Below are positions 6,817 through 64,000 of a stretch of DNA of 64,000 nt, one piece after another. The notes beneath the pieces were generated by a model. It saw nothing but the letters and a program-made list of their open reading frames with translations. It did no database searches and had not been told where the DNA came from. This stretch comes from Sugiyamaella lignohabitans. Taxonomy: Eukaryota; Ascomycota; Dipodascomycetes; Dipodascales; Trichomonascaceae. How positions within the stretch are numbered: position 1 is the first letter of the stretch; each line of letters starts with the position of its first letter. The translations under genes were made by a program, and so were the position numbers. The stretch spans positions 186,001 to 250,000 of the forward strand of contig NC_031672.1 in assembly GCF_001640025.1 (NCBI RefSeq), written 5' to 3'.

Positions 6817-6949
6817 CTCCTGCGAAGCAGGAGCCACGGGGTCTGGGGGCAGAGCCCCAGCCGCCGGAGGCAGTCTGGCACCGGGTGTTGCCTCCGGCGG
6901 CTGGGGCTCTGCCCCAGACCCCGTGGCTCCTCTCGCTTCGCTCGAGTCG
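6817..6949. repeat. GC element, inverted pair in R-F order
   Basis: An R arm (6817-6872, inner-hairpin type CTCCTGCGAAGCAGGAG) is followed by an F arm (6889-6949, type CTCGCTTCGCTCGAG). Most other pairs are ordered F-R, so here the TGCCTCC ends face each other across 16 bases. It ends 54 bases beyond the AsnRS stop codon. The outer-stem loop is AGA rather than the usual GGA. Confidence 0.9.
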
Positions 6950-7003
6950 GTTGCGTGGGGGATTGGTCTATTTACAATTGGAGACTATGTACAGGGAAGG
7001 CGT

Positions 7004-8446
7004 CTAGCAGACACAGCTGCCAGCCCATCGAGGGAAGCCGATGGCCTCGCGGATGTTCTCGACTCCGCAGACAAAGCATACCAGACGTTCGAAACCCATT
7101 CCGTAGCCGCCATGGGGAAAACTGCCGTATTTGCGGAGGTCCAGGTACCATTCAAGGTCATCCGGGTTCATGTTATTGTCGTTCATGGCCGATAAAAGAG
7201 TCTGGTGGTCGTCTTCACGCAGACTTCCTCCTATGAGCTCGCCCATTTCTGGGACAAGCAGGTCGAAACAGGCAACTGTTGCCTTTGTTTCGTCAGATAC
7301 AGCATTCTTTTTCATGTAAAAAGGTTTCTGATGCATTGGATAATCGGTTACGAAAACTGGTCCTTGGATAATATGTGCTGCCAGATGCTTTTCCTGTTCT
7401 GATGACAGCGAGTCTCCCCACTTCAATGAAGGAAATTCTTTCCGTAATAATTCCACGGCTTCGGTATATGTCACACGAGCCCATGGTTTCGGCTGTGATA
7501 ACATTTGCCATCGCTGTTTGAGGGTTTCTTGTTTCGTTGAGCTGCTCTGTTTGTTGGATTGGATTATATCAATGGCCATGGCACTATCAGGCACAGCGGC
7601 ACGAATCATTTGTTCGGCCACTGTCATGACATCTTTTAACGACTCTGTGAATGCCAGCTCGGCCTCTACCATCCAGAATTCGCTCAAATGGCGGTTGGTA
7701 TCGCTTTTCTCGGCACGAAATGCTGGTGCCATGTTCCATACTCGTGACAGAGCAGCTGCATACACTTCTAAATGCAATTGACTGGATACACTGAGGTATG
7801 CCGGTTTGTCACCAAAGAAGTATGGTTGTTTCTGATTCTTGTCTGGTTCGCCGGAATTGATCGTGAACACTTCACCAGCACCCTCACAATCTGAAGATGT
7901 GATAATGGGTGAACTGACTTGTGTGAATCCTGCTGACTCGAAATATCTGGCAATACGCGATTGAGCATATGATCTGTATCTCAATACACTTGAATTGCCA
8001 AGAGTCTTCCAACGAAACGACGGAATCGTCCGTAAATACTCAGCTGTGTGGAATTTTTTCTGTAATGGATACGATTGGTCGGCAGGACCCAGCACCTTAA
8101 CTGGGTCGGGTTTCCCTGGAACTGGTTCTGCCACTTGCAGCTCGAATTTCTGGTTTCCAGGGGATTCACTCAGCTTTCCCGAAAGCTGTACACAGGCCCC
8201 GGTGCTGAGTTGTTTGCTCTGCTCCGGCGTGAGCACCACTGCTAATGTGTCAGCAGACGTTCCGTCGCCGATATCTGCAAATGCCACTTTCTTCATCCGT
8301 CTCACCGATCGCACCCATCCGTTCACGGTGGCATCTTCGCCCAACCTGGGACTCTCCACCAGCGACCTAATCGTCCGAACCGACGCCAGCACAGCACGAC
8401 TTGTCCTCATTAATAATCTATCAGCCAGTGTCAGAACCTGGCTCAT
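7004..8446 (-). CDS. SLM5: Asparaginyl-tRNA synthetase, mitochondrial
   Basis: 480 residues. Residues 1-30 are basic and hydroxylated without acidic residues (ADRLLMRTSRAVLASVRTIR), a typical mitochondrial presequence. Residues about 38-110 form the OB-fold anticodon-binding domain (VNGWVRSVRR). The class II catalytic core follows: YLSVSSQLHLE near 218, motif 2 (FRAEKSDTNRHLSEFWMVE) at about 243-261, and motif 3 (GGYGMGFERLV) at about 446-456. It is the bacterial-type enzyme that charges mitochondrial tRNA-Asn. A nearby ATG (residue 13) could also initiate but would shorten the presequence. AspRS is the main alternative; the spacing and the GxGMGFERLV form favour AsnRS. A GC element begins 54 bases after the stop. 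Confidence 0.93.
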   Translation of the reverse strand: MSQVLTLADRLLMRTSRAVLASVRTIRSLVESPRLGEDATVNGWVRSVRRMKKVAFADIGDGTSADTLAVVLTPEQSKQLSTGACVQLSGKLSESPGNQKFELQVAEPVPGKPDPVKVLGPADQSYPLQKKFHTAEYLRTIPSFRWKTLGNSSVLRYRSYAQSRIARYFESAGFTQVSSPIITSSDCEGAGEVFTINSGEPDKNQKQPYFFGDKPAYLSVSSQLHLEVYAAALSRVWNMAPAFRAEKSDTNRHLSEFWMVEAELAFTESLKDVMTVAEQMIRAAVPDSAMAIDIIQSNKQSSSTKQETLKQRWQMLSQPKPWARVTYTEAVELLRKEFPSLKWGDSLSSEQEKHLAAHIIQGPVFVTDYPMHQKPFYMKKNAVSDETKATVACFDLLVPEMGELIGGSLREDDHQTLLSAMNDNNMNPDDLEWYLDLRKYGSFPHGGYGMGFERLVCFVCGVENIREAIGFPRWAGSCVC

Positions 8447-8551
8447 GAATAGATCGACCGTCAGATATCTACAAGTTCATGCGGCTGGAATTTTTCAGAC
8501 CGTCGATCGTTTACCCCTGAGCTCGCCGGATTGGTCTCAGGGGGAGGGGTG

Positions 8552-10698: not shown

Positions 10699-10732
10699 TT
10701 CTATTTATTTTTCACTGGCTTTGCCAGGGGTC

Positions 10733-10873
10733 TGCCTCCGGCGGCTGGGGCTCCGCCCCAGACCCTGGTTGCTCCTGCTTCGCAGGAGTTTGTTGGGACC
10801 GTTGGAAGAAACGACTCGAGCGCAGCGAGAGGAGCAACCAGGGTCTGGGGCGGAGCCCCAGCCGCCGGAGGCA
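10733..10873. repeat. GC element, inverted pair F-R
   Basis: F arm with CAGGAG-type end, about 25-base spacer, R arm with CTCGAG-type end. It sits directly behind the stop codon of the gene at 9079-10698. Confidence 0.93.
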
Positions 10874-14230: not shown

Positions 14231-14371
14231 TGCCTCCGGCGGCTGGGGCTCCGCCCCAGACCCTGGTTGCTCCTCTCGCTTCGCTCGAGTCGTTTCGTCC
14301 GGCGTTCCCAGCCATCTCCTGCGAAGCAGGAGCAACCAGGGTCTGGGGCGGAGCCCCAGCCGCCGGAGGCA
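14231..14371. repeat. GC element, inverted pair F-R between convergent genes
   Basis: The element fills most of the gap between the convergent phospholipase B and GH5 genes: 41 bases from one stop codon and 12 bases from the other. F arm has the CTCGAG-type end, R arm the CAGGAG-type end. Confidence 0.95.
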
Positions 14372-16151: not shown

Positions 16152-16337
16152 TGCCTCCGGCGGCTGGAGCTCCGCCCCAGACCCCGCTGCTCCTCTCGCT
16201 GCGCTCGAGTCGGGTGTGGGGGTGCCGGCAGAAGCTCACCACCCACGATTCCAACTGATCTGGGACCCCCCACGCCCGACTCGAGCGAAGCGAGAGGAGC
16301 AGCGGGGTCTGGGGCGGAGCCCCAGCCGCCGGAGGCA
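16152..16337. repeat. GC element, inverted pair F-R
   Basis: Pair with an unusually long (about 70-base) spacer. Both inner ends are of the CTCGAG type (TCGCTGCGCTCGAG and CTCGAGCGAAGCGAG). It lies 49 bases after the stop of the small membrane-protein gene. Confidence 0.93.
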
Positions 16338-17445: not shown

Positions 17446-17585
17446 TGCCTCCGGCGGCTGGGGCTCCGCCCCAGACCCTGGTTGCTCCTCTCGCTGCGCT
17501 CGAGTCGTTTCGTCGACGGTGCCGGCCATCTCCTGCGAAGCAGGAGCAACCAGGGTCTGGGGCGGAGCCCCAGCCGCCGGAGGCA
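17446..17585. repeat. GC element, inverted pair F-R
   Basis: F arm with CTCGAG-type end (GCGCAGC loop variant on the bottom strand) and R arm with CTCCTGCGAAGCAGGAG. It ends 53 bases from the VPS1 stop. Confidence 0.95.
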
Positions 17586-19839: not shown

Positions 19840-20145
19840 TGCCTCCGGCGGCTGAGGCTCCGCCCCAGACCCCGCTGCTCCTCTCGCTTCGCTCGAGTCG
19901 TTATATGGAGCTGGCCCTCGTTCCTACGGAAACTGGCAACGACATGGGTCGACGCAGGGTCCGGCACAGCCGTGTGGTCAGCGTCCGCTCAGGGAGTGGA
20001 ATCTTGGCTCCGGCTGAGGTGTTAATGCAGAGATCTCCAGGGTCCTGCTCTGATCGGCGAAAAAGCCCTGTAACCCCCACGCCCGACTCGAGCGAAGCGA
20101 GAGGAGCAACCAGGGTCTGGGGCGGAGCCCCAGCCGCCGGAGGCA
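19840..20145. repeat. GC element, inverted pair F-R with long spacer
   Basis: F arm (19840-19899) and R arm (20087-20145) enclose about 190 bases of unrelated sequence, the longest spacer in the window. The F arm has a CTGAGGC variant in its main stem. It ends 53 bases from the LAS17 stop. Confidence 0.9.
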
Positions 20146-23404: not shown

Positions 23405-23871
23405 ATGTCCGGACGTCAAGGTGGAAAGCTCAAACGTACGTCGTCTCCGCGGGGTTTGCCTCCGGCGGCTGGGGCTCCGCCCCAGACCCTGGTTGCTCCT
23501 CTCGCTTCGCTCGAGTCGGGCGTGGTGGGCCCAGTTGGAGAGAAAACTCCTGCGAAGCAGGAGCAACCAGGGTCTGGGGCGGAGCCCCAGCCGCCGGAGG
23601 CAGTCCCCCCTCCCCTAGCAGAGGAAACTAACAGCGGCAGCTCTTAAGCAGGCCAAGAAGAAGACCAACGAGTTCGAGGACGAGGAGGATCAGGCCTTCA
23701 AGGCCAAGCAGAAGGCCGACGCCCAGGCTCGTAAAGAGATGGCCAATAAGGCCGCCAAGGGTGGACCTCTTGTCGGCGGAGGTATCAAGAAGTAAGTTTT
23801 TTCGGGGCATCTGACCCCTGTCGCTCTCCGTTGGCGCTACTAACGTTTTGTCCAGATCCGGCAAGAAATAG
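23405..23871 (+). CDS. TMA7: Translation-machinery-associated protein Tma7, three exons
   Basis: Join 23405-23435, 23641-23791, 23856-23871 (198 bases, 65 residues). The product starts MSGRQGGKLKPLKQ and ends GPLVGGGIKKSGKK, the same frame of motifs as yeast Tma7 (SRQGGKMKPLKQ ... KPLVGGGIKKSGKK). The middle is Lys/Glu/Asp-rich and helical. Tma7 is a small ribosome-associated protein conserved in eukaryotes. Intron 1 (23436-23640, 205 bases) has donor GTACGT, branch ACTAAC and acceptor CGGCAG, and carries a full GC element. Intron 2 (23792-23855, 64 bases) has GTAAGT, ACTAAC and TCCAG. The last exon codes only five residues. Both junctions restore the conserved protein exactly, so the model is secure. 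Confidence 0.95.
23457..23602. repeat. GC element inside TMA7 intron 1
   Basis: Complete F-R pair (CTCGAG-type then CAGGAG-type) 21 bases after the donor and 38 bases before the acceptor. Removing it leaves an intron of 59 bases. Confidence 0.95.
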
Positions 23872-23930: not shown

Positions 23931-24191
23931 TGCCTCCGGCGGCTGGGGCTCCGCCCCAGACCCGGGTTGCTCCTGCTTCGCAGGAGTTGGCGGGGGCTGT
24001 GGCGCAGGGAGGGGACCAGCCTGGGTGCGGATGGGGGTCGTGGCGCAACGACTCGAGCGAAGCGAGAGGAGCAACCCGGGTCTGGGGCGGAGCCCCAGCC
24101 GCCGGAGGCAGATGGGGCTTGTGGCGCAACGACTCGAGCGCAGCTAGAGGAGCAGCCCGGGTCTGGGGCGGAGCCCCAGCCGCCGGAGGCA
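23931..24191. repeat. GC element, F-R-R triple
   Basis: An F arm (CAGGAG type) and two R arms (CTCGAG type; the second has a GAGCGCAGCTAGAG variant) that share the preceding word TGTGGCGCAACGACTCGAGC, so the second R arm looks like a recent tandem duplication. It lies between the convergent TMA7 (59 bases after the stop) and the GRAM-like gene. Confidence 0.92.
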
Positions 24192-26831: not shown

Positions 26832-26972
26832 TGCCTCCGGCGGCTGGGGCTCCGCCCCAGACCCTGGTTGCTCCTCTCGCTGCGCTCGAGTCGGGTGTGG
26901 GGCACCCTCCAAATAACTCCTGCGAAGCAGGAGCAACCAGGGTCTGGGGCGGAGCCCCAGCCGCCGGAGGCA
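26832..26972. repeat. GC element, inverted pair F-R
   Basis: CTCGAG-type F arm and CAGGAG-type R arm; flanked by GGGGAGGGG and CCCCTCCCC, which extend the inverted symmetry. Intergenic. Confidence 0.94.
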
Positions 26973-28347: not shown

Positions 28348-28474
28348 TGCTTCCGGCGGCCGTGCAACTGCGCGGACCCGTGGTGTTCGCTTCACGAACG
28401 ACTGGGGGACGGGGGACATGCCTCCGGCGGCCGGGCTCCGCCCGGACCCGTGGTGCTCGCTTCGCGAGCGAGGG
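28348..28474. repeat. GC element, short subfamily, two direct F copies
   Basis: Two F-oriented copies with a shorter main stem (CCGGGCTCCGCCCGG in the second copy, mutated in the first) and the inner hairpin GCTCGCTTCGCGAGC. The first copy is decayed (TTCCGGCGGCCGTGCAAC). Confidence 0.85.
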
Positions 28475-28707: not shown

Positions 28708-28858
28708 TGCCTCCGGCGGCTGAGGCGCTGCCCCAGACCCCGTGGCTCCTCTCGCTTCGCTCGAGTCGTTTGTCGTGTTTGTCGTCTCCAACCCAGGAAA
28801 AGTATCTCCTTCGAAGAACGCAGGGGCCACGAGGTCTGGGGAAGAGCCGCTGGAGGCC
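28708..28858. repeat. GC element, decayed inverted pair
   Basis: The F arm is nearly intact but with a GCGCTGCC stem variant; the R arm is heavily mutated (CTCCTTCGAAGAACGCAG, then GGGGAAGAGCCGCTGGAGGC). Confidence 0.8.
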
Positions 28859-31400: not shown

Positions 31401-31462
31401 TGCCTCCGGCGGCTGGGGCTCCGCCCCAGACCCTGGTTGCTCCTCTCGCTCCGCTCGAGTCG
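31401..31462. repeat. GC element, single F arm
   Basis: Complete F arm with a CTCGCTCCGCTCGAG end (GGA loop on the bottom strand); no partner nearby. Confidence 0.92.
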
Positions 31463-31802: not shown

Positions 31803-31959
31803 AGACCCCATTCCCCAGTCGCCGAGACCCTGTCGATCCCCGCAGGGTCCCTGCAGCGGCCGGAGGCAGTACGGGCGCCATAGATGACGATGGTTACTAT
31901 TGTAATGTACAGAGATGCAGCAGAGCGCCAAATAAATAACCCGGGGCCCGAGACGGGAG

Positions 31960-40492: not shown

Positions 40493-42152
40493 ATGACCCT
40501 TGATCTCCGAGTGGGCAAGAAATACCGCATCGGCCGCAAAATCGGGTCCGGTTCGTTCGGCGACATCTACCTCGGTAAGTGCACTTTCTCCGGGGCCCTC
40601 GTGCCTCCGGCGGCTGGGGCTCCGCCCCAGACCCTGGCTGCTCCTCTCGCTTCGCTCGAGTCGTTGCGTGGGGATCCCGTGTCAACTCCTGCGAAGCAGG
40701 AGCAACCAGGGTCTGGGGCGGAGCCCCAGCCGCCGGAGGCACACCCCCCTCCCCAAGTCGTCAGTACAGGTACTAACAGCAGCAGGAACGAATATTTTGT
40801 CCGGAGAAGAGGTGGCCATTAAGTTGGAGAGCGTGAGGGCTCGACACCCGCAGCTGGATTACGAGGCTCGGGTGTATAAATCGCTGGCTGGCGGCATTGG
40901 AATCCCGTTTGTCAGATGGTATGGCACTGAGAGCCATTATCATGCATTGGTGATGGACCTGTTGGGTCCGTCGCTCGAGGATTTGTTCAATTTCTGTAAC
41001 CGTAAGTTCAGTTATAAGACGGTGTTGCTGCTGGCAGACCAGTTGCTGTCGCGGCTCGAGTTTATTCACGCCAAATCGTTTATTCACCGTGATATCAAGC
41101 CCGATAACTTTCTAATGGGCATTGGCCGGCGGGGAAACCAGGTCAATGTCATTGATTTCGGGCTCGCTAAGAAGTTTAGAGACCCTAGAACGTATATGCA
41201 TATTCCGTACCGAGAGAACAAGAACTTGACTGGTACTGCACGATATGCCAGTATCAACACCCATTTGGGTGTCGAACAGAGCCGGAGAGACGATTTGGAG
41301 AGTCTGGCCTATGTTCTGATTTACTTTTGTCGCGGTTCTTTGCCGTGGCAAGGACTCAAAGCACAGACAAAGAAGGAGAAATACGATCGCATCATGGAAA
41401 AGAAAATGACCACATCGACCGAGGCTTTGACAAGAGGATTACCCTGCGAATTTACTATAATCCTCAATTACGCGCGATCGCTGACTTTCGACGATAAACC
41501 CGATTATCTGTATCTTCACCGAGTTGTCAGAGAACTGTTTAATCGTCAAGGGTACCAGTATGATTATGTGTTTGACTGGACTATTTATAAGCATCACCAG
41601 CAGAAACAGGCGGAAAACAACGGTGCTAATGGCAGTAATGCCAAAAATAACAATGGAGGCACTGGCGGAGCAGGTGCTGGTGCTACTGGAGGTGCTTCTG
41701 TTACCAACAATGGCAATGCAGCTGCCTTGCCATCCAGTTCGCAACCAAAGTTGTTAGGTGGACCGAGTCAATCCGGGCAAGCTGTGAACCAGTCTTCAAG
41801 TGCACAGGCACAGGCTCAAGCTCAAGCTCAAGCAGCTCAAGCACAGGTTCAAGCTCAAGCTCAAGCACAAATGGCACAGGCTCAAGCGCAACTTCAAGCC
41901 CAAGCTCAATTGCAACGTCAGCAACAGGTTCTGGCCGGTAACGGACAAGGACACGTGAGCCACCCGTCGTCGTCGAATCTCCACAATGAGGCCACCGGAG
42001 GATACTACCGGGGTTACGACGACAGCATGGCCCGATACAACAAATCCGGGTCACCTCAAGAACAGGGTGGCCAGGCACATCCACAAGCCAAACGCCAGGA
42101 CAGTGACCCGCTGATTGACGCTCTCCAGCTCGGCAACCAGGCCTGGTTGTAG
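40493..42152 (+). CDS. HRR25: Casein kinase I delta/epsilon type, Hrr25
   Basis: Join 40493-40574 and 40786-42152 (1449 bases, 482 residues). Exon 1 ends in the glycine loop ([12 protein letters not shown]), and exon 2 resumes [16 protein letters not shown], exactly the Hrr25 order. The intron (40575-40785, 211 bases) has donor GTAAGT, branch ACTAAC, acceptor AGCAG, and contains a full GC element. Kinase features: [12 protein letters not shown] near 127, DFGLAKK near 150, and the CK1-specific [15 protein letters not shown] and [18 protein letters not shown]. The C-terminal 190 residues are Asn/Gly-rich then (Ala-Gln)-rich and probably disordered. Hrr25 acts in ribosome maturation, ER-Golgi traffic, meiosis and selective autophagy. 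The spliced model restores an unbroken catalytic core. Confidence 0.97.
40602..40741. repeat. GC element inside the HRR25 intron
   Basis: Complete F-R pair (CTCGAG-type then CAGGAG-type), 27 bases after the donor. Without it the intron would be 71 bases. Confidence 0.95.
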
Positions 42153-42874
42153 ACTCTGGCCTCGCCAAACAACCTCAATCAACCCCAAATCACCTCAAAT
42201 CACCTTTAACCCCTCAGTCACGACAATAACATCGACCATTCACGCGGACTGCTCGAAATAAACAGCATGCGACGAGCAGCCGCAATAAACCCACGAAGCG
42301 AGAGCACTGACAATCGACTATTGACAAAACAGTAACCACACGCCCGCACCGCCGCGGTCGCCTTTTCTTCTTCTTCTATGATCGAACCCGACTAAAACAA
42401 GATTAACTCAGAAACACACATAAAACACAAAACACAAATGCTAGCATACTTTGCCGTTATATCACCGACAGCTACTACTACTACTTCTACTACTATTACT
42501 ACTTTTATCGCTCTTGTCTTCACTATTATAATATATATATCAGCCGAGTCCGTGTCCGGGACCGGGGTGTGCCTCCGGCGGCTGGGGCTCCGCCCCAGAC
42601 CCGGGTTGCTCCTCTCGCTTCGCTCGAGTCGTTGCTCGGGGGCCGGTCTTCAGGAGCACCCCCGCCACGCCCCGTGCCCAGTGGACCCAGGTAATCTCCT
42701 GCGAAGCAGGAGCAACCAGGGTCTGGGGCGGAGCCCCAGCCGCCGGAGGCACACCCCGGTCGCCGACGCGGCCCCCACATTTATTTGTAATACGGGCCGG
42801 GGTAGCGCGGGTCAGCTGTAGGGTGCAGATAAATAGCGAGCACTGAGTAGAGTGAGACTGTGAGAGAGGTGTGA
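42153..42874. other. Region between HRR25 and NPY1
   Basis: No gene seen. Contains a CTA/TAC-rich trinucleotide stretch at 42470-42505 and one GC element. Confidence 0.45.
42570..42751. repeat. GC element, inverted pair F-R
   Basis: CTCGAG-type F arm and CAGGAG-type R arm with a 65-base spacer; GGGGTG and CACCCC extend the symmetry. It lies upstream of NPY1. Confidence 0.94.
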
Positions 42875-44299: not shown

Positions 44300-44360
44300 T
44301 GCCTCCGGCGGCTGGGGCTCCGCCCCAGACCCCGCTGCTCCTCTCGCTTCGCTCGAGTCG
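44300..44360. repeat. GC element, single F arm
   Basis: Intact F arm with CTCGAG-type end directly behind the NPY1 stop; the partner arm is missing. Confidence 0.93.
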
Positions 44361-45639: not shown

Positions 45640-46230
45640 CACCCAGCTTATTTTCCGCTGAATTCCTACCAATTCGGACTGTGGCCGAATCCCAGATAAC
45701 GAGCGAAGCGAGCTACGGGGTCTGGGGCAGAGCCCCAGCCGCCGGAGGCAGACCAGACCCTCGTGCACTCATAGCTCCACTGGCATAATTTGCTGGTTCC
45801 TTCAGTTTGTCGCCGACCTTAGCATAACGAGCAAAGTAATTTGCTGAGCCCTTTTATTACCTTGCTCCCCAGTGGCATAATTTGAGAGCCATTTCGGACT
45901 GTGGCCGAATCCCAGCATAACCTACGATGCGAGTTATGGGCCTGGGGCAGAGCTCTAGCGGCCGGATGCAGCCCAAAACTCTTGCTCGTTTGCTCCCCAT
46001 TGCATAATTTGCGGTAATTTTTGGATTGTGGATGAACTCCGGCATAATGAGTGAAGCGAGTTATGGGGGCTTTGGTGACTCCAACTGTCGGATGCAGCAT
46101 AGACCGCCTTGTTCCTTGTTCCCCCACTGGCATAATCTGCCCGACACCTTCGGAGTGGGCGGAGCCCCGCATAACCAGTGAAGCAAGCTATGGGGTCTGG
46201 GGCAAAGCTCCAGCCGCCGGAGGCATCCCT
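45640..46230. repeat. Decayed tandem array carrying GC-element arms
   Basis: Four degenerate R-type arms (ends near 45751, 45972, 46095, 46226) are embedded in a longer repeated unit. The unit includes CCCCASTGGCATAATTTGC-like words (about 45781, 45875, 46000, 46132), GGACTGTGGCCGAATCCCAG-like words, and GCATAAY before GCGAAGCGAG. Spacing is about 120-175 bases. Point decay is heavy, so this is an old copy set. Confidence 0.75.
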
Positions 46231-49227: not shown

Positions 49228-51022
49228 GTTCTTCTTTCATGATGTGCGGTTATCTGGTCGGTCTAGCATGATTCAAGGCTTTTTTATTGCCTTGTCTGTT
49301 GCTCCCTTTTCCTCGAGGGACCAATACTAGCTAAGACTATTAATTCATGGTCAAACTGTCTTGTTGTATGATAGTTGACGAACAGAGTTTCAAAGTGGTC
49401 TTCAGACTCTCCCTTGTCACGGTCTCACCTTTGGTACTATTGGATCGGTTATCATTTCGATTTCCCTTCGGATTAGCGGTCTTCAGTCGGCGGCATCCCG
49501 AGTCCCGGCTGATATCTGCTGTCATTCATTGGCTCACAGGTCCCAAGTCTAACAGTTTGCTCATCGTCCCTTGTTGTTCACTACATCCGTCGCCTCGCAC
49601 ACCGCGAGCAGCTGACCCTTTAGATCGTTCGACTATGGTAGACTTGGCTCCTCGCCAGTCTACTCCTGGAAATTCTTGGTTCCTTCCATTTACGGCGCTT
49701 CCTTAGCGACATTTTGGACTGGAATTCAAGACTCACAATTTTCATGGACGGACGATGAGCACTCGAAGACTTGGCGCCTTAGGTGGTCCTTCTCTAGTTA
49801 CCCACCTGGCTAATGGACTCTTAATAGTACCACCCTGATCATGATATGAACTCTGGGATCCAGTTCTACGATTCTGAGCTCGACAAATCAATTCAATGAG
49901 CTAGCTGATTCTGTTCTTGTGGGATTCCTCGTATTGATGGAATGATCCCTCGCTTCTCACGGAGCTGACAGACAGTTATTCACGAACAGAAGCTGGGCCG
50001 CCTAGTTTAACCGCACACATGATTGATTGAACTTAACACCTATTACTTTATTTGATGAACTGGGAAGGTTCTAATGATTATTGTTGTCTCTTGTATTATC
50101 TCTTCTACTTAATATTAATACTTTTATTTATTTTTCCACACCTTGAGACTGGTCTGCCTCCGGCGGCTGGGGCTCCGCCCCAGACCCTGGTTGCTCCTGC
50201 TTCGCAAGAGAGGGCTTGGGTCCGAGAGACTGTACGATAGACTGAAGAGCCCTTGGAATAAAAGCATCTTGACTTGTCAAGGGTCACGGTTACAGCCATT
50301 AACGGCCCAGTTGACAGGTCCTAAGATAAGAATACAAAAGAGAGAAATAAGTCGTAAGTCAGAAGAGCGATCCCAACTTGGAAAGACTTCAAGGGGAACA
50401 AACCTCAATTTAGCTCGACAAATCATGCCTCCCCGGACTTCTTTATGCTCAGTTTACCTTAGAGAGGAGGTGAAGCAGCCTTTTCCAAGGTAGTATACAT
50501 GATATTTCCAGGCCTGTTGGATAATATCAAGCTACTTTGTTGACTAGATCAAGGAGGTATTCAAACTGGAGATGAATGAAGATAACTGGGCCATTCCTAA
50601 ATCGAGACTATGAGATAAATGTTCTTATGAAGCTGTTGTCTAACAGCATGGATCTTGGGTTGAAATGAGCGACTTCTTTCTCATGGCACGATAATCTGGA
50701 CATTTGTGTAAATAGTTCATTCAAATATTATTGAATGGCACGTTTGCAACTTTTTGTCGAGGGTCGATGGTGAAGAACTCTCGCCATATTTCCAACTCAG
50801 CATACAAATGGTGCCGAATATTTTCTAGGGGAAACTTTGAACAGAATACAGCGAGAGGATCTATTGGAGCCGGGGGATACCTCGCTCGGGTCTTCTCTCT
50901 CAACTGAAAAGGTGATTTCATGGCCCAACCTCTCGACAGTACACACACATTTAATGACTACATAATAGCATAAGAGCAAGATCTTCCTTCTCAAATTAAA
51001 TACAGCCCTCCAACCGACGTCC
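49228..51022. other. Region downstream of the PIP-kinase-like gene
   Basis: No gene supported. A 75-residue bottom-strand frame at 50721-50948 (ENIRHHLYAELEIWREFF) has ordinary composition but cannot be placed in a family. One single GC-element arm is present. Confidence 0.45.
50155..50210. repeat. GC element, single F arm
   Basis: F arm with TGCTTCGCAAGAG end (one mismatch in the CAGGAG hairpin). Confidence 0.92.
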
Positions 51023-51082
51023 GACTCGAGCGAAGCGAGAGGAGCAACCAGGGTCTGGGGCGGAGCCCCAGCCGCCGGAGGC
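51023..51082. repeat. GC element, single R arm
   Basis: Intact R arm, CTCGAG-type end; a second R arm follows 55 bases later. Confidence 0.93.
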
Positions 51083-51137
51083 ATGCTGTTCCCCTCTACC
51101 ACCATTCAATCCACGCACCCCTACCTGCCCCAAATCC

Positions 51138-51554: not shown

Positions 51555-51690
51555 TGCCTCCGGCGGCTGGGGCTACGCCCCAGACCCCATAGCTCCTGCT
51601 TCGCAGGAGTGGCTGGGACCCGAACGGAACGACTCGAGCGAAGCGAGAGGAGCCGGGGGGTCTGGGGCGCAGCCCCAGCCGCCGGAGGCA
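51555..51690. repeat. GC element, inverted pair F-R
   Basis: CAGGAG-type F arm and CTCGAG-type R arm. The main-stem loop is GCA (GCGCAGC at 51667-51673) with TAC on the F side (GGGGCTACGCCCC), so the two arms differ in the loop but both keep GNA on the bottom-strand sense. It ends 37 bases from the GLO2 stop. Confidence 0.94.
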
Positions 51691-51727: not shown

Positions 51728-52759
51728 TTACATTTTGTTCTTGAGCTCGCGGAGTTTGTGCATGACGTCGACCCGGTCGTCAAGACCGACTGCTTTCTTG
51801 ATCACGGGCGAATCGACCATCATGAATGGGTTGTATTGCTTCTCGTCACCGATGGTGAAGGCTCCGGTGGTCTGTTCGTTTTGCGCGGTGAACTTGTCGA
51901 GTTTGCTGACGGCTTCGTTATTGAGAACGGTTTTGACGAACTTGAGGTTCGAAGCTGTGTATTCGTGGCCAGGGTAGACCTTTGTATCGTCAGGGAGAGA
52001 TCCTAGAACAGACACAAGTGCCGTGACCATCTCCTGGGGAGTACCTTCAAAGAACCGGCCACAACCAGCAATAAACAGAGTATCACCTGTGAACACAGCT
52101 CTCTCGTCTTTGGTCTTGTCCTCGAAAAAGTAACAGATCGAGTCCTGAGTGTGGCATGGAGTATGTAAAGCCGTCACCTGTATATTCTCGCCGATTTTGA
52201 ACTGGCTCTTATGAGCCGGCGTCGTCTTCACAAACGGCGAGTCCTTACCAGCAATCACTGGCACCTGGGGAAACGCTTTCAACAATTGCTCATTACCACC
52301 CGCATGGTCGTAATGATGGTGTGTGTTAATAATAGAGGTCAATTCCAGACCCTTGGCAGCAATTGCCTTCTTCAAAGGCGGCAGAACTCTGTTCTCGTGT
52401 TAGAAATGGGGGCAATGGGGACATGCCTCCGGCGGCTGGGGCTCCGCCCCAGACCCTGGTTGCTCCTGCTTCGCAGGAGATATTTCAGTAGGGACTGCCC
52501 CACGAAACGACTCGAGCGAAGCGAGAGAGCCGGGGGGTCTGGGGCGCAGCCCTAGCCGCCGGAGACACCGTCGGTTCACGTACTCTTCAGGCTCGGCTGG
52601 GTCAATGATGGTCGACTGGTTAGTGGCCTCGTCGGTGACCAGGTAGGCGTAGTTGTCGCCACGGCCCCAGCGCATCTGGATCGGTTGGATGTGCATGTTT
52701 CTTGCTTGTGTTCGGGATCGGATCAGGTGGGTTCGAAGTATAGGTCTCGCAATTAGCAT
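51728..52759 (-). CDS. GLO2: Hydroxyacylglutathione hydrolase (glyoxalase II), two exons, two possible starts
   Basis: Exon 1 52759-52584 and exon 2 52388-51728 (837 bases, 278 residues). The junction reads DPAEPEE-VLPPLKKAI, matching yeast Glo2 DPAEPPEVLPEL. The 195-base intron has donor GTACGT, branch CTAAC and acceptor AACAG and holds a GC element. The metal-binding motif THHHYDHAGGN is near residue 75; HTPCHTQDSICY, FTGDTLFIAGCGRFFEG and YPGHEYT follow, as in binuclear-metal glyoxalase II. It hydrolyses S-lactoylglutathione in methylglyoxal detoxification. The upstream ATG (52759) adds LIARPILRTHLIRSRTQARN, a likely mitochondrial presequence; the ATG at 52696 gives the 257-residue cytosolic form. 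One gene may thus serve the roles split between GLO2 and GLO4 in S. cerevisiae. Confidence 0.95.
52424..52566. repeat. GC element inside the GLO2 intron
   Basis: F-R pair; the R arm has a GCA main-stem loop (52544-52550) and a decayed end (CCTAGCCGCCGGAGACA). Without it the intron would be 52 bases. Confidence 0.94.
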
Positions 52760-54213
52760 CAAAATTAGGTCTTGTAGGTGGTTGACGGGAGATGGTGACA
52801 AAGCTGTTGCTCTGACTGGTCGAGAGCCGCACTCATGTGTGATCTGGTTTGTGTGGGGGATTTTCTGGGGGGTGTGAACATGCCTCCGGCGGCTGGGGCT
52901 CCGCCCCAGACCCTGGTTGCTCCTCTCGCTTCGCTCGAGTCGGGCGTCGGGGGACTTGGGTCTGTTTCTTGGGTCGACTGGAGCGGTCATGGATGTGTCC
53001 TTGAAGTGAAAAATCGTGCACATTGGGACCAATTGGGAGTCTGGTTCGCTGGTTAGTGATCTCATCTGGGAAATTATCCATTTATTACTTATCAATCATT
53101 ACAAAAAAACTATGTTGAAAATAATTGTGGATCAATTGACATGTTTTGGAGACTTCTGAATTATGGTCATTTAACAGTCTACTCCTATCAGCAGTCTGCT
53201 TCTTCTGGGTCTGAAATTGTATAACCCACTTGCTCTAACTCGCGGTCATTGGCTTTTTTCCAAACGTTCAAAGAGTTTCAAGAAAGTACTCATGGAAGTT
53301 CATCATGGTCGTGAGATGACATCTCATATGATATGGTATAGTACTACTTTTCACTTCGAACAGTTTAATCGTACATATGCACTGACGCTTATCTTGCATA
53401 CGCCAAACGTCATTAGTCCTCCTGATAGACAAAAAGGGATTATCGACATCTGCAAAAGGGATATAATATATTTTCACAAAAAAACTCCAGATTCTATTCC
53501 AACGAGTAACTCGTTATCAAAGCTCTTTGATTTAATAGATTAAATGTAAATTTAACTACAACTACTGTTTAATATGATTAGCATTTGACCACTATTAACC
53601 TAAATTGAAGATATATACATCGCATATATTACGTCTACTGACCATGAACATATATGACAGAATTTAAATCATAGACAAAGAAGTGAATCTGGTTTAAATA
53701 TAAAACACCATATCCTGTGACGATACAGAAACGCTCTGATACTCAAGCAGACTCTTCGACTTGATTAGATCAACAGACATATTACGTCAGAGTCGACCCC
53801 CACCCTGATCCCACCTGAACCAGCATATATGCTCAGCCGTTGGTGCTTATTTCCGAACATAGTATTACATCCTGAATACCTAACCCTTTTGACAGCCTGG
53901 CGAGCCTTCACGTGGTTTCATATACATATTTCTACATGCTTTATCGGAGAAAAATATATGCACGTGCATGTAAAGCCGGCGGTGATGGCGTTGACGGATT
54001 TAGCGGCTTGACAGCCTGCTCATAGGTATATTATTTATTTATATTTTTGGGTTGGGCCGGCTCTCCTTTATAAATAAACAAGCTTCTGGACTTCGTCAAT
54101 AGACACATGCCACGCCTGGTTTTGGATCTTTGATCTCATTTTTCTGACTCATTTTTCTTCGCTTCCCACTCACGGGACTCTAATTCACATCCCTCACACC
54201 GAGGTCATAAACT
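52760..54213. other. Region between GLO2 and PGC1
   Basis: AT-rich, no gene supported. A top-strand frame at 53292-53543 (from an internal ATG) shows no known family. One GC-element arm is present near GLO2. Confidence 0.45.
52881..52942. repeat. GC element, single F arm
   Basis: Intact F arm with CTCGAG-type end, upstream of the GLO2 start codons. Confidence 0.93.
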
Positions 54214-55452
54214 ATGGGTAAGTGGCCAAACCCACTCTGATACTACTGTGGCCAAAACTAACAACTCTAATCAGCATCTTTCCTCGAAAAAAGCAGGTTT
54301 GCGTCTCCTGCTCCCCACAGACCGCTATGTTCCGGCCACAGAGGGTAGGTAACTCACAGGGGGACCGGGCGGTGCCTCCGGCGGCTGGGGCTCCGCCCCA
54401 GACCCTGGTTGCTCCTCTCGCTTCGCTCGAGTCGTTCCGTTGGGCGTTACCAGCCATCTCCTGCGAAGCAGGAGCAACCAGGGTCTGGGGCGGAGCCCCA
54501 GCCGCCGGAGTCACGCCCTCCACCGCCAGATCCAGGTCTAACCCGGTGTAGATTCAAGGCTCTGTATCCGGAGAACACGATTCTGTCGTTTAGAAGAGCG
54601 ATCGAGGCCGGAGCCACCGTCATTGAGACGGATATCCAGGTGGCAGGCGACGGGGTGATTGTGGTGTCGCATGATCCAAATACTAAGAGATGTTTCGGTG
54701 TGGATCACGATATTACTGAGACACCGTATCATGGGGTTTTGGATAAATTGAAAGCTCTGGATACACCGGCATCGGAGGGGGAACCTGTTCGTCAGCATAT
54801 GCCCACGTTTGTGGAGCTGTTACAGCTGTTTCAGTCTGATAAACAGTTTGAAAAGATCCAGCTGATGCTAGATATTAAACGAACTAACGAACCCTGGGTC
54901 ATTCCTAAAATCGTCGAGGACCTAAAAAAAGTCAATTCGGACCTCGATTTCTGGGGCAGACGCATGGTTCTGGGTATCTGGAGATGGGACGTACTTGAGA
55001 GCGCCAACTCCAGCTGTCCTACATTACCAGTTCTCCATATCGGTTTCTCGAGATCGCTGGCTCGCAAGTTTCTTGCTCAGAGCCAGGTCGTCGGTATTTC
55101 TCTGAACGTGGTTTCTTTGAATGTTCCTGGTGGAAGTTCGCTGATACACGAAGCCAAACAGCTCGGAAAACTGACGTACGCATGGACTGTCAACCAGAAA
55201 CCGGCTATGAAATGGGCCGCCTCGATGGATCTCGACGGTATCATTACCGACCACCCCGACGTCTACGCCAAATTCATCGGCGATGTCACCGAAAAAGAGA
55301 TCGAGACCATCTACGCCGTCAAAGAACCGTCGGCGTTCTACACCTTCTCGGAGAAAATGAGCTACCGCCTCAAATTCGCGGTCATGTGGATGTGGGTCTT
55401 CTACCTACAGGTGTCGGACTTCTTCTTCCCATCGGCTAAAGGCCCTTTTTAG
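54214..55452 (+). CDS. PGC1: Glycerophosphodiester phosphodiesterase family, Pgc1-like phosphatidylglycerol phospholipase C
   Basis: Join 54214-54217, 54275-54344, 54552-55452 (975 bases, 324 residues). Exon 1 is only ATGG. Splicing creates SGHRGFKALYPENTILSF, the GDPD catalytic start (His-Arg, later Glu-Asn-Thr), followed by IETDIQVAGDGVIVVSHD and LMLDIK. The layout and length match yeast Pgc1 (321 residues; GHRAFKARYPENT), with about 20 extra N-terminal residues. A hydrophobic C-terminus (FAVMWMWVFYLQVSDFFF) is probably a membrane anchor. Pgc1 degrades phosphatidylglycerol. Intron 1 (57 bases) has GTAAGT, ACTAAC and a TCAG acceptor; intron 2 (54345-54551, 207 bases) has GTAGGT, CTAAC and GTAG and holds a GC element. 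A GC element also lies 46 bases after the stop. Confidence 0.93.
54373..54512. repeat. GC element inside PGC1 intron 2
   Basis: F-R pair (CTCGAG-type then CAGGAG-type). Without it the intron would be 67 bases. Confidence 0.95.
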
Positions 55453-55498: not shown

Positions 55499-55550
55499 TG
55501 CCTCCGGCGGCTGGGGCTCCGCCCCAGACCCTGGTTGCTCGCTTCGCTCG
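55499..55550. repeat. GC element, single F arm, short inner hairpin
   Basis: F arm ending GCTCGCTTCGCTCGG, directly behind the PGC1 stop. Confidence 0.92.
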
Positions 55551-58503: not shown

Positions 58504-58664
58504 TGCCTCCGGCGGCTGGGGCTCCGCCCCAGACCCTGGTTGCTCCTGCTTCGCAGGAGACAGCCGAACCCCTGGTGAACCAGAAAACGCTCTCCCCACG
58601 CAACGACTCGAGCGAAGCGAGAGGAGCAACCCGGGTCTGGGGCGGAGCCCCAGCCGCCGGAGGC
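58504..58664. repeat. GC element, inverted pair F-R between convergent genes
   Basis: Lies 60 bases after the SEC63 stop and 26 bases after the NAA50 stop. It occupies 161 of the 247 bases between the two genes. Confidence 0.95.
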
Positions 58665-58690
58665 ACGCGGGGAAGGTAGTAAAGTGTAGA

Positions 58691-59289: not shown

Positions 59290-59434
59290 TGCCTCCGGCG
59301 GCTGGGGCTCCGCCCCAGACCCTGGTTGCTCCTGCTCCGCAGGAGTTTTTAAGGATCGGGGACCGTCGCGGAACCGACTCGAGCGCAGCGAGAGGAGCAA
59401 CGGGGTCTGGGGCGGAGCCCCAGCCGCCGGAGGC
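59290..59434. repeat. GC element, inverted pair F-R
   Basis: F arm with a TGCTCCGCAGGAG variant (GGA loop on the bottom strand), R arm with CTCGAGCGCAGCGAG. It lies upstream of NAA50 and 33 bases from the CUE5 stop. Confidence 0.94.
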
Positions 59435-59467
59435 AGCGGAGTCGCCGAGAGTACTATGTATTAAGAG

Positions 59468-61345: not shown

Positions 61346-61483
61346 TGCCTCCGGCGGCTGGGGCTCCGCCCCAGACCCTGGTTGCTCCTCTCGCTGCGCT
61401 CGAGTCGTTCCGTCGGGGGTGGCGGGACTTTCCTGCGGAGCAGGAGCAACCAGGGTCTGGGGCGGAGCCCTAGCCACCGGAAG
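61346..61483. repeat. GC element, inverted pair with decayed R arm
   Basis: Intact F arm (CTCGAG type) and an R arm with TTCCTGCGGAGCAGGAG, AGCCCTAGCCACCGGAAGC (decayed end). Confidence 0.9.
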
Positions 61484-61644
61484 CAAACCCTTCCAGGGCC
61501 GGAAAGGGGGTTTTTTAGGGGTCCCAGATGGTCAATTCGGTAGTAAGAGGCTGCAGAAGTGCATAAATAATTAAATCACCAGTGAATATCCAGTTTTTGC
61601 ACGGAAAAGACTTGAAATTTGGACTTGCGGGGGACCCTTCGCCC

Positions 61645-61705
61645 GACTCGAGCGCAGCGAGAGGAGCAGCCAGGGTCTGGGGCGGAGCCCCAGCCGCCGG
61701 AGGCA
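61645..61705. repeat. GC element, single R arm
   Basis: Intact R arm with CTCGAGCGCAGCGAG end. Confidence 0.93.
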
Positions 61706-62058
61706 GACCCCCTACCGTGAGAGAAAGAAAAAAGAGGGAGGGTGGAGGAGGGGGCCATCGCCGATCGGACCCTGGTGCAGCAGCCGGGGAGCGTTACCCG
61801 GCTTGCAGGTGCAGTAAATAAATATTTCACATTTGGGTTTCGAGAGTGAGAGTTTGAGTGAGCAGCGATTGAGTGTGGTTGGTTTATTTACACTGAACAG
61901 CGAGCGAAACGAAAATTTTTGGACCCAGCCTGTTTGGACATTTGGAGAGCGGGATTCAGTGCTGACAGTGCTCGAGGGTTTTATTTATTTATTTTTCAGC
62001 GGGAGTTGTGTGTGATCAAGCAAAGGAGGATCGGTCGCTAGTTCGCTGGTAGCATAGC

Positions 62059-63867
62059 ATGTCTTGGAGAGGAGGTCGAGGCCGTGGAAACAGTTCCAAT
62101 AACAATTACAATAATGGAGGAGATTTCGGCAGTCGGTTAGGAGGAACTCAGTCGTCTGGATTTGGTAGTGGTGGCAGCAGTCATAATAACAATGCCACCG
62201 TCGAGATCCGGGGATGGGAAGGTGGTACTCGAGACGATTTGGTAGCGTTTATTCTGCGAAAATGCAGTATTAAACTGCAGAATGTTATAGTCAATGGCGG
62301 AGTTATCAGTGCTGGAGTCAAACAAGAAGAAGCAGGTCCGCTGGTTAAATGGTCAGGTGTGAGGTTTGCTGGTGCACCTCTCCGAATAACGATTGTAGAG
62401 TCCAATAAACCGTCGTCAGCGTCGAATCCTCCTACTTATGGTACAGTAGAGATTCTTCGAAACTTTTTACAGTCTCGATACAATGCACAAATCAGCATGC
62501 TGGATCTCCAGAATTTGAAAAACGACGTGTATTTACAACAGAATGGACTGTTTGCAAGTGCCAGTACTGCATCGAAGATGTTTCCTGCACTGATGAAAAT
62601 AGCTGGCGAATTGGCATCTGGCCAGCAGAGAATGGTGGTTGAATCAGTCAATTTGGCAGCTAATGAACTTCAAGAAGTCACTGGAGTCACCACTCTGGCA
62701 CAAGCATTCCCCGATTTGAAGAACCTGTCGCTGGCAAATAATAATATTACCCGATTAAAAGGATTAGAACCATGGAGACATAAGTTCCGACTTCTTCGTG
62801 AACTGATTCTTAGTGGTAATCCTGTAACAGAACAACCAGGATATAAAGAGGAGATGATGAAAATGTTCCCTCGATTGATTATGTTAGATGGTCAGATGAT
62901 TCGAGACGAATCTACATTAGACCAACTCAAACTGCCACTTCCTGTGAAGCAGATGTTTTTTGAAAACCCCGATGTCCAGGGTATAGCCACGAGTTTCCTG
63001 ACTAATTTTTTCAATGCTTTTGACCATGACAGAGCACAATTGGCACAATTGTATGACGAAACATCGACGTTCTCAATTTCCGTCAACAGCTCGTCGCCAC
63101 GAGTCATGCCCGGCGGAGGAACTACGGCACCCAGCCAAGCCGGCTGGAGCGCATATATCCCTCTATCACGAAACTTACAAAAAGTCACGACGGAATCCGC
63201 GCGTATCAACCGTCTGGCTATCGGACCACAGGCCATTCTCAACGCCTTCCGACGCATTCCTCCTACCAAACATCCATTAATGGAGTCTCCCGACAAGTTT
63301 GCTGTTGAGACTTGGCATACAAACGGAGTTCGAGCTGCCGACGATACGGGAATCATGATCTCGATTCACGGCGAGTTTTCGGAGCAACAAACGAACACCG
63401 TGCGCAGTTTCGACCGTACTTTCATTCTCATCCAAGGGCCTGCCGGTAACATGATTGTTGCCAGTGATATCATGACAGTTCGAAGCTGGGGAGGCAGCGA
63501 ATCGTGGAAAGAGTCTGTTCTTCCCCCACCAACTGTTCCCACAACCGTTCCTGGAGTCAATACTCCATCTGCTGGTGCTGGAGGAGTAAACGGGATTCCA
63601 CCACCCGCACCCACGATTAATCCTATGAATCCCTCGGCCCCACCACCAATCATGGCCACCGGAACACCACCAACCGTCAACACCCCGCCAGAACTCGCAG
63701 ACCTGCCACCACCACAACTGGCCATTGTACAACAACTCATGCAAGAAACGCGACTGACGCCCCAGTACTCGCGAATGCTGGCCGAACAAGCCAACTTCGA
63801 CCTCAACCAGGCCGCGGTACTGTTCCAGCAGTCGCGCCAACAACTTCCCCCCTCTGCATTCTTATAA
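62059..63867 (+). CDS. MEX67: mRNA export receptor Mex67 (NXF1/TAP family)
   Basis: 602 residues. N-terminal Gly/Arg/Asn-rich start (SWRGGRGRGNSS). RRM-like domain about 45-120 (VEIRGWEGGTRDDLVAFI, ITIVESNKP), LRR region about 190-285 (LKNLSLANNNITRLKGLEPW, LRELILSGNPVTEQPGYKEE), NTF2-like domain about 300-475 (FLTNFFNAFDHDRAQLAQLY, FDRTFILIQGPAGNMIVASD), Pro/Thr linker, and a C-terminal UBA-like TAP-C domain (LAIVQQLMQETRLTPQYSRM, then NFDLNQAAVLF). It forms a heterodimer with Mtr2 and carries mRNPs through the nuclear pore. Full-length and uninterrupted; a GC element begins 40 bases after the stop. Confidence 0.97.
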   Translation: MSWRGGRGRGNSSNNNYNNGGDFGSRLGGTQSSGFGSGGSSHNNNATVEIRGWEGGTRDDLVAFILRKCSIKLQNVIVNGGVISAGVKQEEAGPLVKWSGVRFAGAPLRITIVESNKPSSASNPPTYGTVEILRNFLQSRYNAQISMLDLQNLKNDVYLQQNGLFASASTASKMFPALMKIAGELASGQQRMVVESVNLAANELQEVTGVTTLAQAFPDLKNLSLANNNITRLKGLEPWRHKFRLLRELILSGNPVTEQPGYKEEMMKMFPRLIMLDGQMIRDESTLDQLKLPLPVKQMFFENPDVQGIATSFLTNFFNAFDHDRAQLAQLYDETSTFSISVNSSSPRVMPGGGTTAPSQAGWSAYIPLSRNLQKVTTESARINRLAIGPQAILNAFRRIPPTKHPLMESPDKFAVETWHTNGVRAADDTGIMISIHGEFSEQQTNTVRSFDRTFILIQGPAGNMIVASDIMTVRSWGGSESWKESVLPPPTVPTTVPGVNTPSAGAGGVNGIPPPAPTINPMNPSAPPPIMATGTPPTVNTPPELADLPPPQLAIVQQLMQETRLTPQYSRMLAEQANFDLNQAAVLFQQSRQQLPPSAFL

Positions 63868-63907
63868 TAACAATAATCTTATTTCTGTAACCCCCGGTGA
63901 GGGGGTC

Positions 63908-64000
63908 TGCCTCCGGCGGCTGGGGCTCCGCCCCAGACCCTGGTTGCTCCTGCTTCGCAGGAGATTGTGCGCGACTCCCCGACGAAACGACTCGAGCGAA
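63908..64000. repeat. GC element, cut by window end
   Basis: F arm with CAGGAG-type end, then an R arm starting (CGACTCGAGCGAA) that runs off the window. Confidence 0.94.

Follow-up and report, generated by a model that had tools for sequence, protein, structure and literature searches.

An abundant GC-rich hairpin repeat in the yeast Sugiyamaella lignohabitans and its possible counterpart in bacteria

Short palindromic repeats have been described from several kinds of genomes. In bacteria, repetitive extragenic palindromic (REP) sequences and their composite forms, the bacterial interspersed mosaic elements (BIMEs) and the REP doublets forming hairpins (REPINs), are short, intergenic, non-coding palindromes that occur in high copy number as singles and inverted dimers. 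Heterodimers are preferred in most REP families, a preference said by the authors to have no obvious explanation before large hairpins or cruciforms are raised as a burden on replication, and REPs of the CGTC type are described in the same source as lacking a REP-associated tyrosine transposase (RAYT) as well (PMC3733652). The GC42 clusters of yeast mitochondria, palindromes of 42 nt with AG target nucleotides, show loop-biased change and merger and shuffling of units, and their mechanism of transposition is presented as still open (PMC4478555). Hairpins also fill organelle genomes of the green algae Haematococcus and Chlorosarcinopsis, those of the latter having loops of 3 nt (PMC7043297, PMC7235400), and a break-repair origin has been proposed for such plastid palindromes (PMC7043297). 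Miniature inverted-repeat transposable elements (MITEs) are likewise short, intergenic and present in many copies, with inverted ends. Here we describe a GC-rich hairpin repeat in a window of 64,000 nucleotides from the yeast Sugiyamaella lignohabitans (positions 186,001 to 250,000 of contig NC_031672.1, or C1:186001-250000) and in the rest of its genome.

The unit of this repeat, here called the arm, occurs singly and in inverted dimers of an L and an R arm, many of them heterodimers, and the comparison with REP and BIME elements drawn in a preliminary description of the window was apt as far as architecture is concerned. The yeast copies are, like REPs, short, mainly extragenic and numerous, and the dimers have a preferred orientation. 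However, they lie in a yeast genome, have up to three hairpins per arm and more than 6,000 copies, have neither the GTAG nor the CGTC tag at the stem base (CGTC was present only in the spacer core of units with one A and one B arm, described below), and no RAYT gene was found in the yeast genome. With the GC clusters they share the character of GC-rich yeast palindromes with changes concentrated in the loops, although linker columns vary too; they differ in their arms of about 60 nt, in the lack of a convincing duplication and in their location on multi-megabase contigs instead of the mitochondrial genome. The likeness to the algal palindromes is one of architecture, the latter residing in organelles. 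As in MITEs, there are terminal inverted repeats (unit ends TGCCTCCGGCGGC..GCCGCCGGAGGCA), but the arms have several hairpins and are conserved next to a decayed spacer, and a convincing target duplication is lacking. The reading favoured here, with confidence somewhat short of even, is that of an abundant non-coding hairpin repeat, akin to REPs and GC clusters, which would have been spread and homogenised by hairpin-triggered repair; as part of this reading, the element would spread without a gene of its own, as REP/BIME repeats and mitochondrial GC clusters do. Hairpin repeats of the REP kind have been described in prokaryotes and GC clusters in organelles; the yeast element would link both through its thousands of copies, its conserved arms and free spacers, its heterodimers and a core in common with bacterial repeats. 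The yeast host genome, the unequal evolution of arms and spacers and the occurrence of the core in bacteria are features beyond those given in the preliminary description.

Structure, abundance and conservation of the arms

The family unit is the arm, with three consecutive small hairpins. On the R strand these follow in the order inner hairpin, linker of 4-6 bases, GGGTC overlapping the main stem (CTGGGGC-NNN-GCCCCAG), CC, and the end hairpin GCC-GGA-GGC followed by A (GCCGGAGGC), the consensus being GGGTC 5' and CCGCCGGAGGC 3' of the main stem. The core of the arm can be written as GGGGTC-[hairpin]-GCCGCCGGAGGC, and GG precedes the GGTC position in 116 of the 140 yeast arms outside a nearly uniform subfamily, named CCAG. 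There are three types of inner hairpin: A (CTCGAGC-GNA-GCGAGAG), B (CTCCTGC-GAA-GCAGGAG) and C (GCTCGC-GAA-GCGAGC). Type A, as read from the sequence, pairs CTC with GAG and GC with GC around two G-A mismatches, and tandem G-A mismatches of this sort are known to be stable; the folding program favours a 4-bp stem with a 7-base loop for it. A short-stem variant of the arm has CCGGGC/GCCCGG as its main stem.

The preliminary description had put the element at about 45 loci of the window and had suggested that copies be collected genome-wide. In the 15,932,016 bases searched (4 contigs), the exact main stem was found 6,160 times, the exact inner A hairpin 3,289 times and the flank pattern GGGGTC-N8-17-GCCGCCGGAGGC 3,702 times, with 0 matches for each of the control patterns (reversed for the main stem), far beyond chance. 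The density was patchy, ranging from 0 to 10 main stems per 10 kb over 20 even stretches of C1. In the 64 kb of the window there are 62 main stems; the 72 arms there, a count that omits the short-stem variant, make up 23 close L/R pairs and 26 singles, giving 49 units, or 31 clusters when grouped at 450 bp, so that the earlier figure was a fair one. Arms were analysed in a sample of 314 kb, composed of the window and 25 stretches of 10 kb, which holds 212 arms (61 close pairs and 90 single arms) and to which the counts below refer unless the genome or the window is named. No match to the element was obtained in Rfam at gathering thresholds. At a permissive threshold one dimer gave 48 matches, the top ones being microRNA-type long hairpins below their own cut-offs, which were read as an effect of shape. 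Neither a search of the full dimer against phage records nor one of the translated element against proteins found anything.

Arms frequently face each other, L then R: successive arms less than 120 bp apart were minus-plus in 56 cases, plus-minus in 2 and on the same strand in 7. Both arms were of type A or B in 52 of the 61 close pairs (46 A+B, 5 A+A and 1 B+B), and the remaining 9 carry an untyped or C arm. The arms seem to have been exchanged as well as inherited as whole dimers, because unlike subtypes were combined in 35 of the 61 pairs and yet like subtypes, in 26, exceeded the 16.3 expected at random. A large selected L/R hairpin was considered as the conserved unit and was rejected, since arm subtypes are frequently mixed inside dimers. 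At one locus (L017, about 7111-7253 onward) a truncated copy of the unit is directly followed by a second spacer and a B arm, as would result from copying one arm into another.

DNA mini-hairpins with GNA loops of such form are documented as extremely stable (PMC4686876), as the preliminary description had stated, and their preservation here would give a natural case of a structure known from DNA chemistry and kept by evolution. The individual loops that it cited were confirmed on re-reading, i.e., GCGCAGC (8638-8644) and GCGGAGC (34628-34634) in inner hairpins, GCGTAGC (8667-8673) and GCGCAGC (51667-51673 and 52544-52550) in main stems, and the exceptions AGA at 6846-6860, about 27340 and about 51175 and ATA near 27775 (on the other strand). 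Its general claim that the loops keep the GNA form is true of the inner A hairpin and fails in the main stem. The inner A loop was GNA in 3,195 of 3,289 genome copies (97.1%) and in 115 of 118 sampled ones, with G as the first base in 115 and A as the last in all 118, whereas the main-stem loop was GNA in only 4,296 of 6,160 genome copies (69.7%). The middle base of the sampled A loops was A in 62, C in 39, G in 13 and T in 4, and 56 of the 59 loop changes fell on it, avoiding the G and the last A. This base, whose column ranks among the most variable in the A arm, varied by 43% and 49% in two subfamilies, against at most 7% for its neighbours and the inner stem; in one subfamily, variation reached 45-51% in two linker columns, 12% in a third and 23-28% in the main-loop columns. 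The spectrum of middle bases was similar in both A subfamilies, which speaks against one inherited variant. The inner B loop (GAA 61, GGA 2, TTC 1; n = 64) is a poor test of the rule because it is almost invariably GAA. Among main loops outside the CCAG subfamily (n = 140) there were 67 GGA, 35 AGA, 14 GCA, 14 AGC, 6 GAA, 3 GTA and 1 AAA, and departures from GGA affected the first base (50) more than the middle one (24). Within the CCAG subfamily the main loop was GGA in 71 of 72 arms. The main loops of the window (GGA in 58 of 72) are cleaner than those of the sample, which we think is owed to this subfamily being common there. The single TTC loop, an inverted form of GAA in a B inner hairpin of locus L029 (about 2134-2271), is a possible hairpin micro-inversion.

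The hairpins, and not the whole unit, are conserved. In 39 A-B units, defined as A+B pairs with 60-95 bases between the main stems and about 140 bp long with inverted ends, the mean pairwise difference was 0.044 among A arms and 0.033 among B arms, compared with 0.437 among spacers (ungapped, equal lengths only; 0.737 for shuffled spacers), or 0.307 for the spacer in gapped comparison on the 29 alignable spacers of the same units. The arms are thus 7-13 times less diverged than the spacers, which look homologous because many of them share a core near CGTCGACGGTCCCAGC. In the detection of arms, up to 5 mismatches per 32 outer bases and 2-3 within the inner hairpin were allowed, a margin much wider than the difference observed. 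A control anchored on the spacer core gave 105 matches, 38 with both arms, 11 with one and 56 with neither, figures that are not clean in that the nearly palindromic core counts some units twice. A recent neutral burst, in which the copies would be alike merely through youth and their structure would be unconstrained, could account for the low divergence of the arms (3-4%) and for the near uniformity of the CCAG subfamily. However, the A-B units are not simply young, given spacers of the same units that differ by 31-44%, and the changes of the inner A loop would not be expected to avoid the G and the last A; such a burst is considered very improbable. The object that is conserved is the fold of one arm, and in this respect the preliminary suggestion of selection to fold was partly supported, with a constraint at the level of the fold seen in the variable middle base and in the unequal divergence. 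The compensation of stem changes had been proposed as a check. In 93 flank-defined yeast segments of 17 bases nearly all stem departures were one-sided and conservation is too high for a test of covariation, changes on both sides being those that separate subfamilies (CTGGGGC/GCCCCAG vs CCGGGC/GCCCGG, and inner types A, B and C); strong covariation was found in the bacterial family described next.

The core of the arm in bacteria

A 28-base pattern, CTGGGGCNNNGCCCCAGCCGCCGGAGGC, had matches on 4 stretches of a prokaryote collection, from an isolate of Solidesulfovibrio aerotolerans and from metagenome-assembled genomes (MAGs) of Desulfovibrionaceae, Desulfovibrio sp. and Acetobacteraceae. All four extend upstream as GGGGTC, which was not part of the query. 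The looser flank pattern was found 197, 8, 323 and 93 times in these four genomes and 0 times in the controls. Among 118 genomes of Desulfobacterota (the starting one included), one further genome, not selected by any match, holds 29 copies, another has a single match without a proper stem, and 2 have one reversed-control match each. Among 398 genomes of Pseudomonadota (the starting one included), 10 others have one match each with at most 2 pairs from the base; these are attributed to chance, because reversed-control matches were equally sparse (9 genomes with one each). In all, four Desulfobacterota genomes and one of Acetobacteraceae hold the arm core in multi-copy families, and the stems of these families covary.

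The stems were tested in 67 distinct arms from the listed matches of the five genomes, found by their flanks alone. At least 6 consecutive pairs from the base were present in 50 of the 67 and at least 80% pairing in 62. Pair 2 was C-G in 47 arms or T-A in 17, and pair 3 was G-C in 41, A-T in 16 and T-A in 2; in 60 arms the own halves of the stem paired at 0.954, compared with 0.788 for swapped halves of equal length. Among the 100 listed copies, of 197 in one genome (G001), all 14 close pairs were arranged L then R and all 14 combined different stems, where 20% identical pairs were expected. In the same genome, a second variant, GGGGTCACCCCTTTGGCCGCCGGAGGC, with the same flanks dimerises with ordinary arms, e.g., at C73:85985.

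The Desulfobacterota repeats (three Desulfovibrionaceae and one other) and those of the Acetobacteraceae MAG are like the yeast arms in the flanking 6-mer and 12-mer, in the main stem of some copies and, in the one genome examined for it, in the L-then-R order with unlike partners. They differ in having 8 to 323 matches per genome, longer and more varied stems and loops that are mostly not GNA (GNA in 4 of 48 distinct odd-length arms). A hairpin just upstream of GGGGTC was present in 7 of 25 bacterial arms vs 35 of 1,250 control windows, and none of these seven came from the Acetobacteraceae genome. No B inner hairpin was found within 2 mismatches at 23 bacterial loci, and the same loci gave two weak A-like inner matches with altered stems. 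The bacterial arms were turned toward genes in 15 of 24 cases, an orientation that is not clear, and a crude call of open reading frames (ORFs; minimum 100 aa) placed 11 of 21 inside one.

Other matches were set aside. In a plasmid search with one arm, 5 of 67 records covered at least 80% at identities of 85.7-86.7% (E 0.07 and 3), and 12 of 30 listed records, all from Streptomyces, had an exact match of 22-23 nt ending with the main stem (E 6e-3, 2e-2); the plasmid matches, weak or partial, were not counted as members of the family. The 22 bases of the yeast arm concerned are GGGGTCTGGGGCGGAGCCCCAG, with at most 6 match places per record and the outer 12-mer absent. The 90 flank matches in viral contigs were not used either; a stem of 5 bp or more was present in 27 of them and absent from the other 63. 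In the literature searched, no paper listed for GCCGCCGGAGGC or its complement GCCTCCGGCGGC dealt with repeats by title, and among papers joining Desulfovibrio with REP terms none was, by title, about such a repeat.

The part common to yeast and bacteria outside the stem amounts to 18 bases at fixed positions, and the order of the dimers and the pairing of unlike arms agree as well. The likeness may be due to transfer, to a common mobile source or to strong convergence. Since the main stem does not account for the outer 12 bases, convergence is less probable, even though the small end hairpin within those bases could be favoured in its own right. Transfer or common descent of the two repeats is possible, though held with distinctly less than even confidence. 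In its full form the proposal is that the same GGGGTC-[stem-loop]-GCCGCCGGAGGC repeat in bacteria and in the yeast nucleus moved between genomes like those of Desulfovibrio or acetic acid bacteria and an ancestor of the yeast, and then multiplied to thousands of copies without a transposase through host repair acting on single-stranded hairpins, and this is put forward as a tentative possibility. If true, it would represent selfish DNA needing no enzyme of its own and therefore able to cross domains.

Transposition, gene borders and repair as explanations

A non-autonomous element driven by a transposase, MITE-like or of the HUH (histidine-hydrophobic-histidine) or REPIN kind, with the enzyme elsewhere, lost or unrecognised, would explain why the A-B unit is discrete, measures about 140 bp, has inverted ends and shows a recognisable core in its spacer, and why its copy number is very high. 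REPINs and MITEs share such a look. However, no convincing direct repeats were found at the ends of 61 units (lengths 2, 4 and 8; four insets), and the 25-base flanks shared 4 direct 6-mers vs 5.0 expected; a target site duplication of constant length was thus not recognised, with boundaries further out being possible. Identical dinucleotides at both ends were seen in 7 of the 61 units (0.115), compared with about 4 expected (0.0645). The yeast genome had no match to Y1_Tnp (PF01797) in a search that matched 5 of 14 control genomes, a Helitron search, silent in all of its controls, speaks neither for nor against such an enzyme, and DDE families were not searched. There were six Y1_Tnp matches (five places) in three of the arm-carrying bacterial genomes and none in the Acetobacteraceae genome, and no arm was found beside any of the six up to about 1.5 kb on each side, so that a link between bacterial arms and Y1_Tnp genes failed and the HUH-transposase substrate of the preliminary description is unsupported. 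Moreover, had units moved recently, the divergence of their spacers should not exceed that of the arms by a factor of 7-13. A transposase as the driving force is therefore considered rather unlikely.

Alternatively, the hairpins could be a structure used by the host, kept as RNA or DNA at gene borders for termination, 3'-end formation or insulation. Most arms (193 of 212) lie outside ORFs of at least 150 aa. Of the 19 within them, 17 are in possibly spurious ORFs of about 150-220 codons and the other 2 in longer ones of about 420 codons. For the 132 intergenic arms flanked by a gene on either side, a stop codon lay at most 60 bp away in 18.2% (24/132), three times the 6.0% of random intergenic positions, and a start in 2.3% vs 4.9%. 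Of 34 single arms no further than 200 bp from an ORF, 31 turned the GCCGGAGGC end to it, and 9 of the 10 A-B units close to gene starts had the A arm in front. The conservation of arms next to decayed spacers would also be expected of such a structure. However, the outer end of single arms faced the gene at starts and ends alike (16 of 21 and 25 of 30, respectively), which would not be expected of a terminator and could be due to nested or widely spaced L/R dimers placing their outermost arms gene-ward. The order of A-B units was unbiased near gene ends (9 and 9), the subtypes are interchangeable, and the patchy density means that many genes do without the element. A host function is unlikely on these grounds.

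The repair-based reading combines the preference of REPs for unlike partners, the loop-biased change of GC42 and the break-repair model of plastid palindromes, and is proposed on that basis. An arm would fold whenever its DNA is single-stranded, and the folded hairpin could provoke breaks or a switch of template or polymerase. Repair from other copies would then re-copy the arms, spreading and homogenising them and mixing arm subtypes within dimers, and could occasionally seed new sites without a clean target duplication. The flanks of the units, rich in C when read outward, also show a slight self-complementarity that is specific to the locus. In 74 units, some of them from loci picked by similarity, the mean score was 2.88 vs 1.95 in permutations, none of 5,000 being as high, and a score of at least 8 was reached by 12% of units vs 1.9% in permutations. 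Counted in favour of this reading are the copy numbers, the prevalence of A+B pairs, the low divergence of arms beside that of spacers, the GNA constraint of the inner A loop with its free middle base, the mixing of subtypes inside dimers, this complementarity of the flanks, and the lack of a convincing direct repeat and of a Y1_Tnp match. A tractable yeast would allow asking whether such repeats need a transposase or spread by hairpin-triggered repair.

Several points weigh against the repair-based reading. No break, repair event or new insertion has been observed, and the data come from one yeast genome. Conversion should also equalise the apex base of the inner A hairpin, unless this site mutates faster or lies at the ends of tracts, and the near constancy of the B apex (GAA in 61 of 64) is not predicted by a purely structural rule. 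Purifying selection at each site would also explain the conserved arms. The energies of the triloops were not discriminated by the RNA or DNA folding parameter sets used. The excess of like subtypes indicates that units were also inherited whole, strong flank complementarity is limited to about 12% of units, and beyond the first 5 flank bases the ungapped identity was 0.35, compared with 0.34 between unrelated units.

Copies and other features of the window

The copies in the window are collected in Table 1. They lie among nuclear-type genes. Six of ten window proteins had Pfam matches, which form a budding-yeast gene set with a class II (D/K/N) tRNA synthetase, a lysophospholipase, a dynamin, an NXF-type mRNA export factor, and NUDIX and DnaJ proteins; the nearest named lysophospholipases are those of Trichomonascus vanleenenianus and Blastobotrys adeninivorans. 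An algal organelle genome, considered initially, was rejected on account of the genes.

Table 1. Hairpin arms and dimers in the 64,000-nucleotide window
Feature	Positions	Strand
Single arm, R orientation, inner type B, AGA main loop	6841..6872	+
Single arm, L orientation, inner type A	6889..6920	-
L/R dimer B-A; R arm with GTA main loop and GCA inner loop	8552..8690	.
L/R dimer B-A	10733..10873	.
L/R dimer A-B, between two long ORFs with convergent 3' ends	14231..14371	.
L/R dimer A-A	16152..16337	.
L/R dimer A-B	17446..17585	.
Arm type A; wide A-A pair with 20114-20145	19840..19871	-
Arm type A; partner of 19840-19871	20114..20145	+
L/R dimer A-B	23457..23602	.
L/R dimer B-A	23931..24110	.
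Single arm type A	24160..24191	+
L/R dimer A-B, inside stretch used as genome query	26832..26972	.
L/R dimer; R arm with inner type C and AGA main loop	27190..27361	.
L/R dimer A-B; ATA inner loop	27726..27868	.
Short-stem variant arm CCGGGC/GCCCGG, L orientation, family D4	28412..28465	-
Single arm type A	28708..28739	-
Short-stem variant arm CCGGGC-AGA-GCCCGG, family D19	29148..29207	+
Short-stem variant arm with inner hairpin GCTCGCGAAGCGAGC, family D19	29235..29294	+
Short-stem variant arm, AGC loop, family D19	29323..29382	+
Single arm type A, inside 417-aa ORF	30075..30106	-
Single arm type A	31401..31432	-
L/R dimer B-B	31629..31803	.
Arm type A; wide A-A pair with 34570-34601	33996..34027	-
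Arm type A; partner of 33996-34027	34570..34601	+
Single arm type A, GGA inner loop	34649..34680	+
Compound L/R unit A-B, further arm sequence inside	35314..35570	.
Single arm type C	35775..35806	-
L/R dimer B-A	36028..36182	.
Single arm type A	37359..37390	+
Single arm type B	38162..38193	-
L/R dimer B-A	38267..38464	.
L/R dimer A-B	38730..38881	.
L/R dimer A-B	40602..40741	.
L/R dimer A-B, complementary flanks	42570..42751	.
Single arm type A	44300..44331	-
Single arm, inner hairpin untyped	45719..45750	+
Single degenerate arm, inner hairpin untyped	45939..45970	+
Single degenerate arm, inner hairpin untyped	46194..46225	+
Single arm type B	50155..50186	-
Single arm type A	51052..51083	+
Single arm type A, AGA main loop	51166..51197	+
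L/R dimer B-A, GCA main loop in R arm	51555..51690	.
L/R dimer B-A, GCA main loop in R arm	52424..52567	.
Single arm type A	52881..52912	-
L/R dimer A-B	54373..54513	.
Single arm, inner hairpin untyped	55499..55530	-
Single arm, inner hairpin untyped, AGC main loop	56058..56089	+
L/R dimer B-A	58504..58665	.
L/R dimer B-A	59290..59435	.
L/R dimer A-B	61346..61485	.
Single arm type A	61674..61705	+
Arm type B at window edge; further main stem beyond edge (genome C1:250021)	63908..63939	-

The stretch at 28541-29400 is AT-rich and contains several short-stem CCGGGC/GCCCGG arms with AGA or AGC loops, which gives it a foreign or organelle-type look; no RNA family was matched up to E 0.5 in the AT-rich stretch 28500-29470. 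Contig C2 of the genome is recorded as exactly 4,950,000 bases, which suggests a cut or rounded end. Two further repeat regions were seen in the window, one with imperfect repeats at a spacing of about 145-157 bp (46859-47456), part of it within a long ORF, and one with a diverged tandem array (22579-22885) whose unit of about 13 bases is TTGACTCTGTCAG-like.

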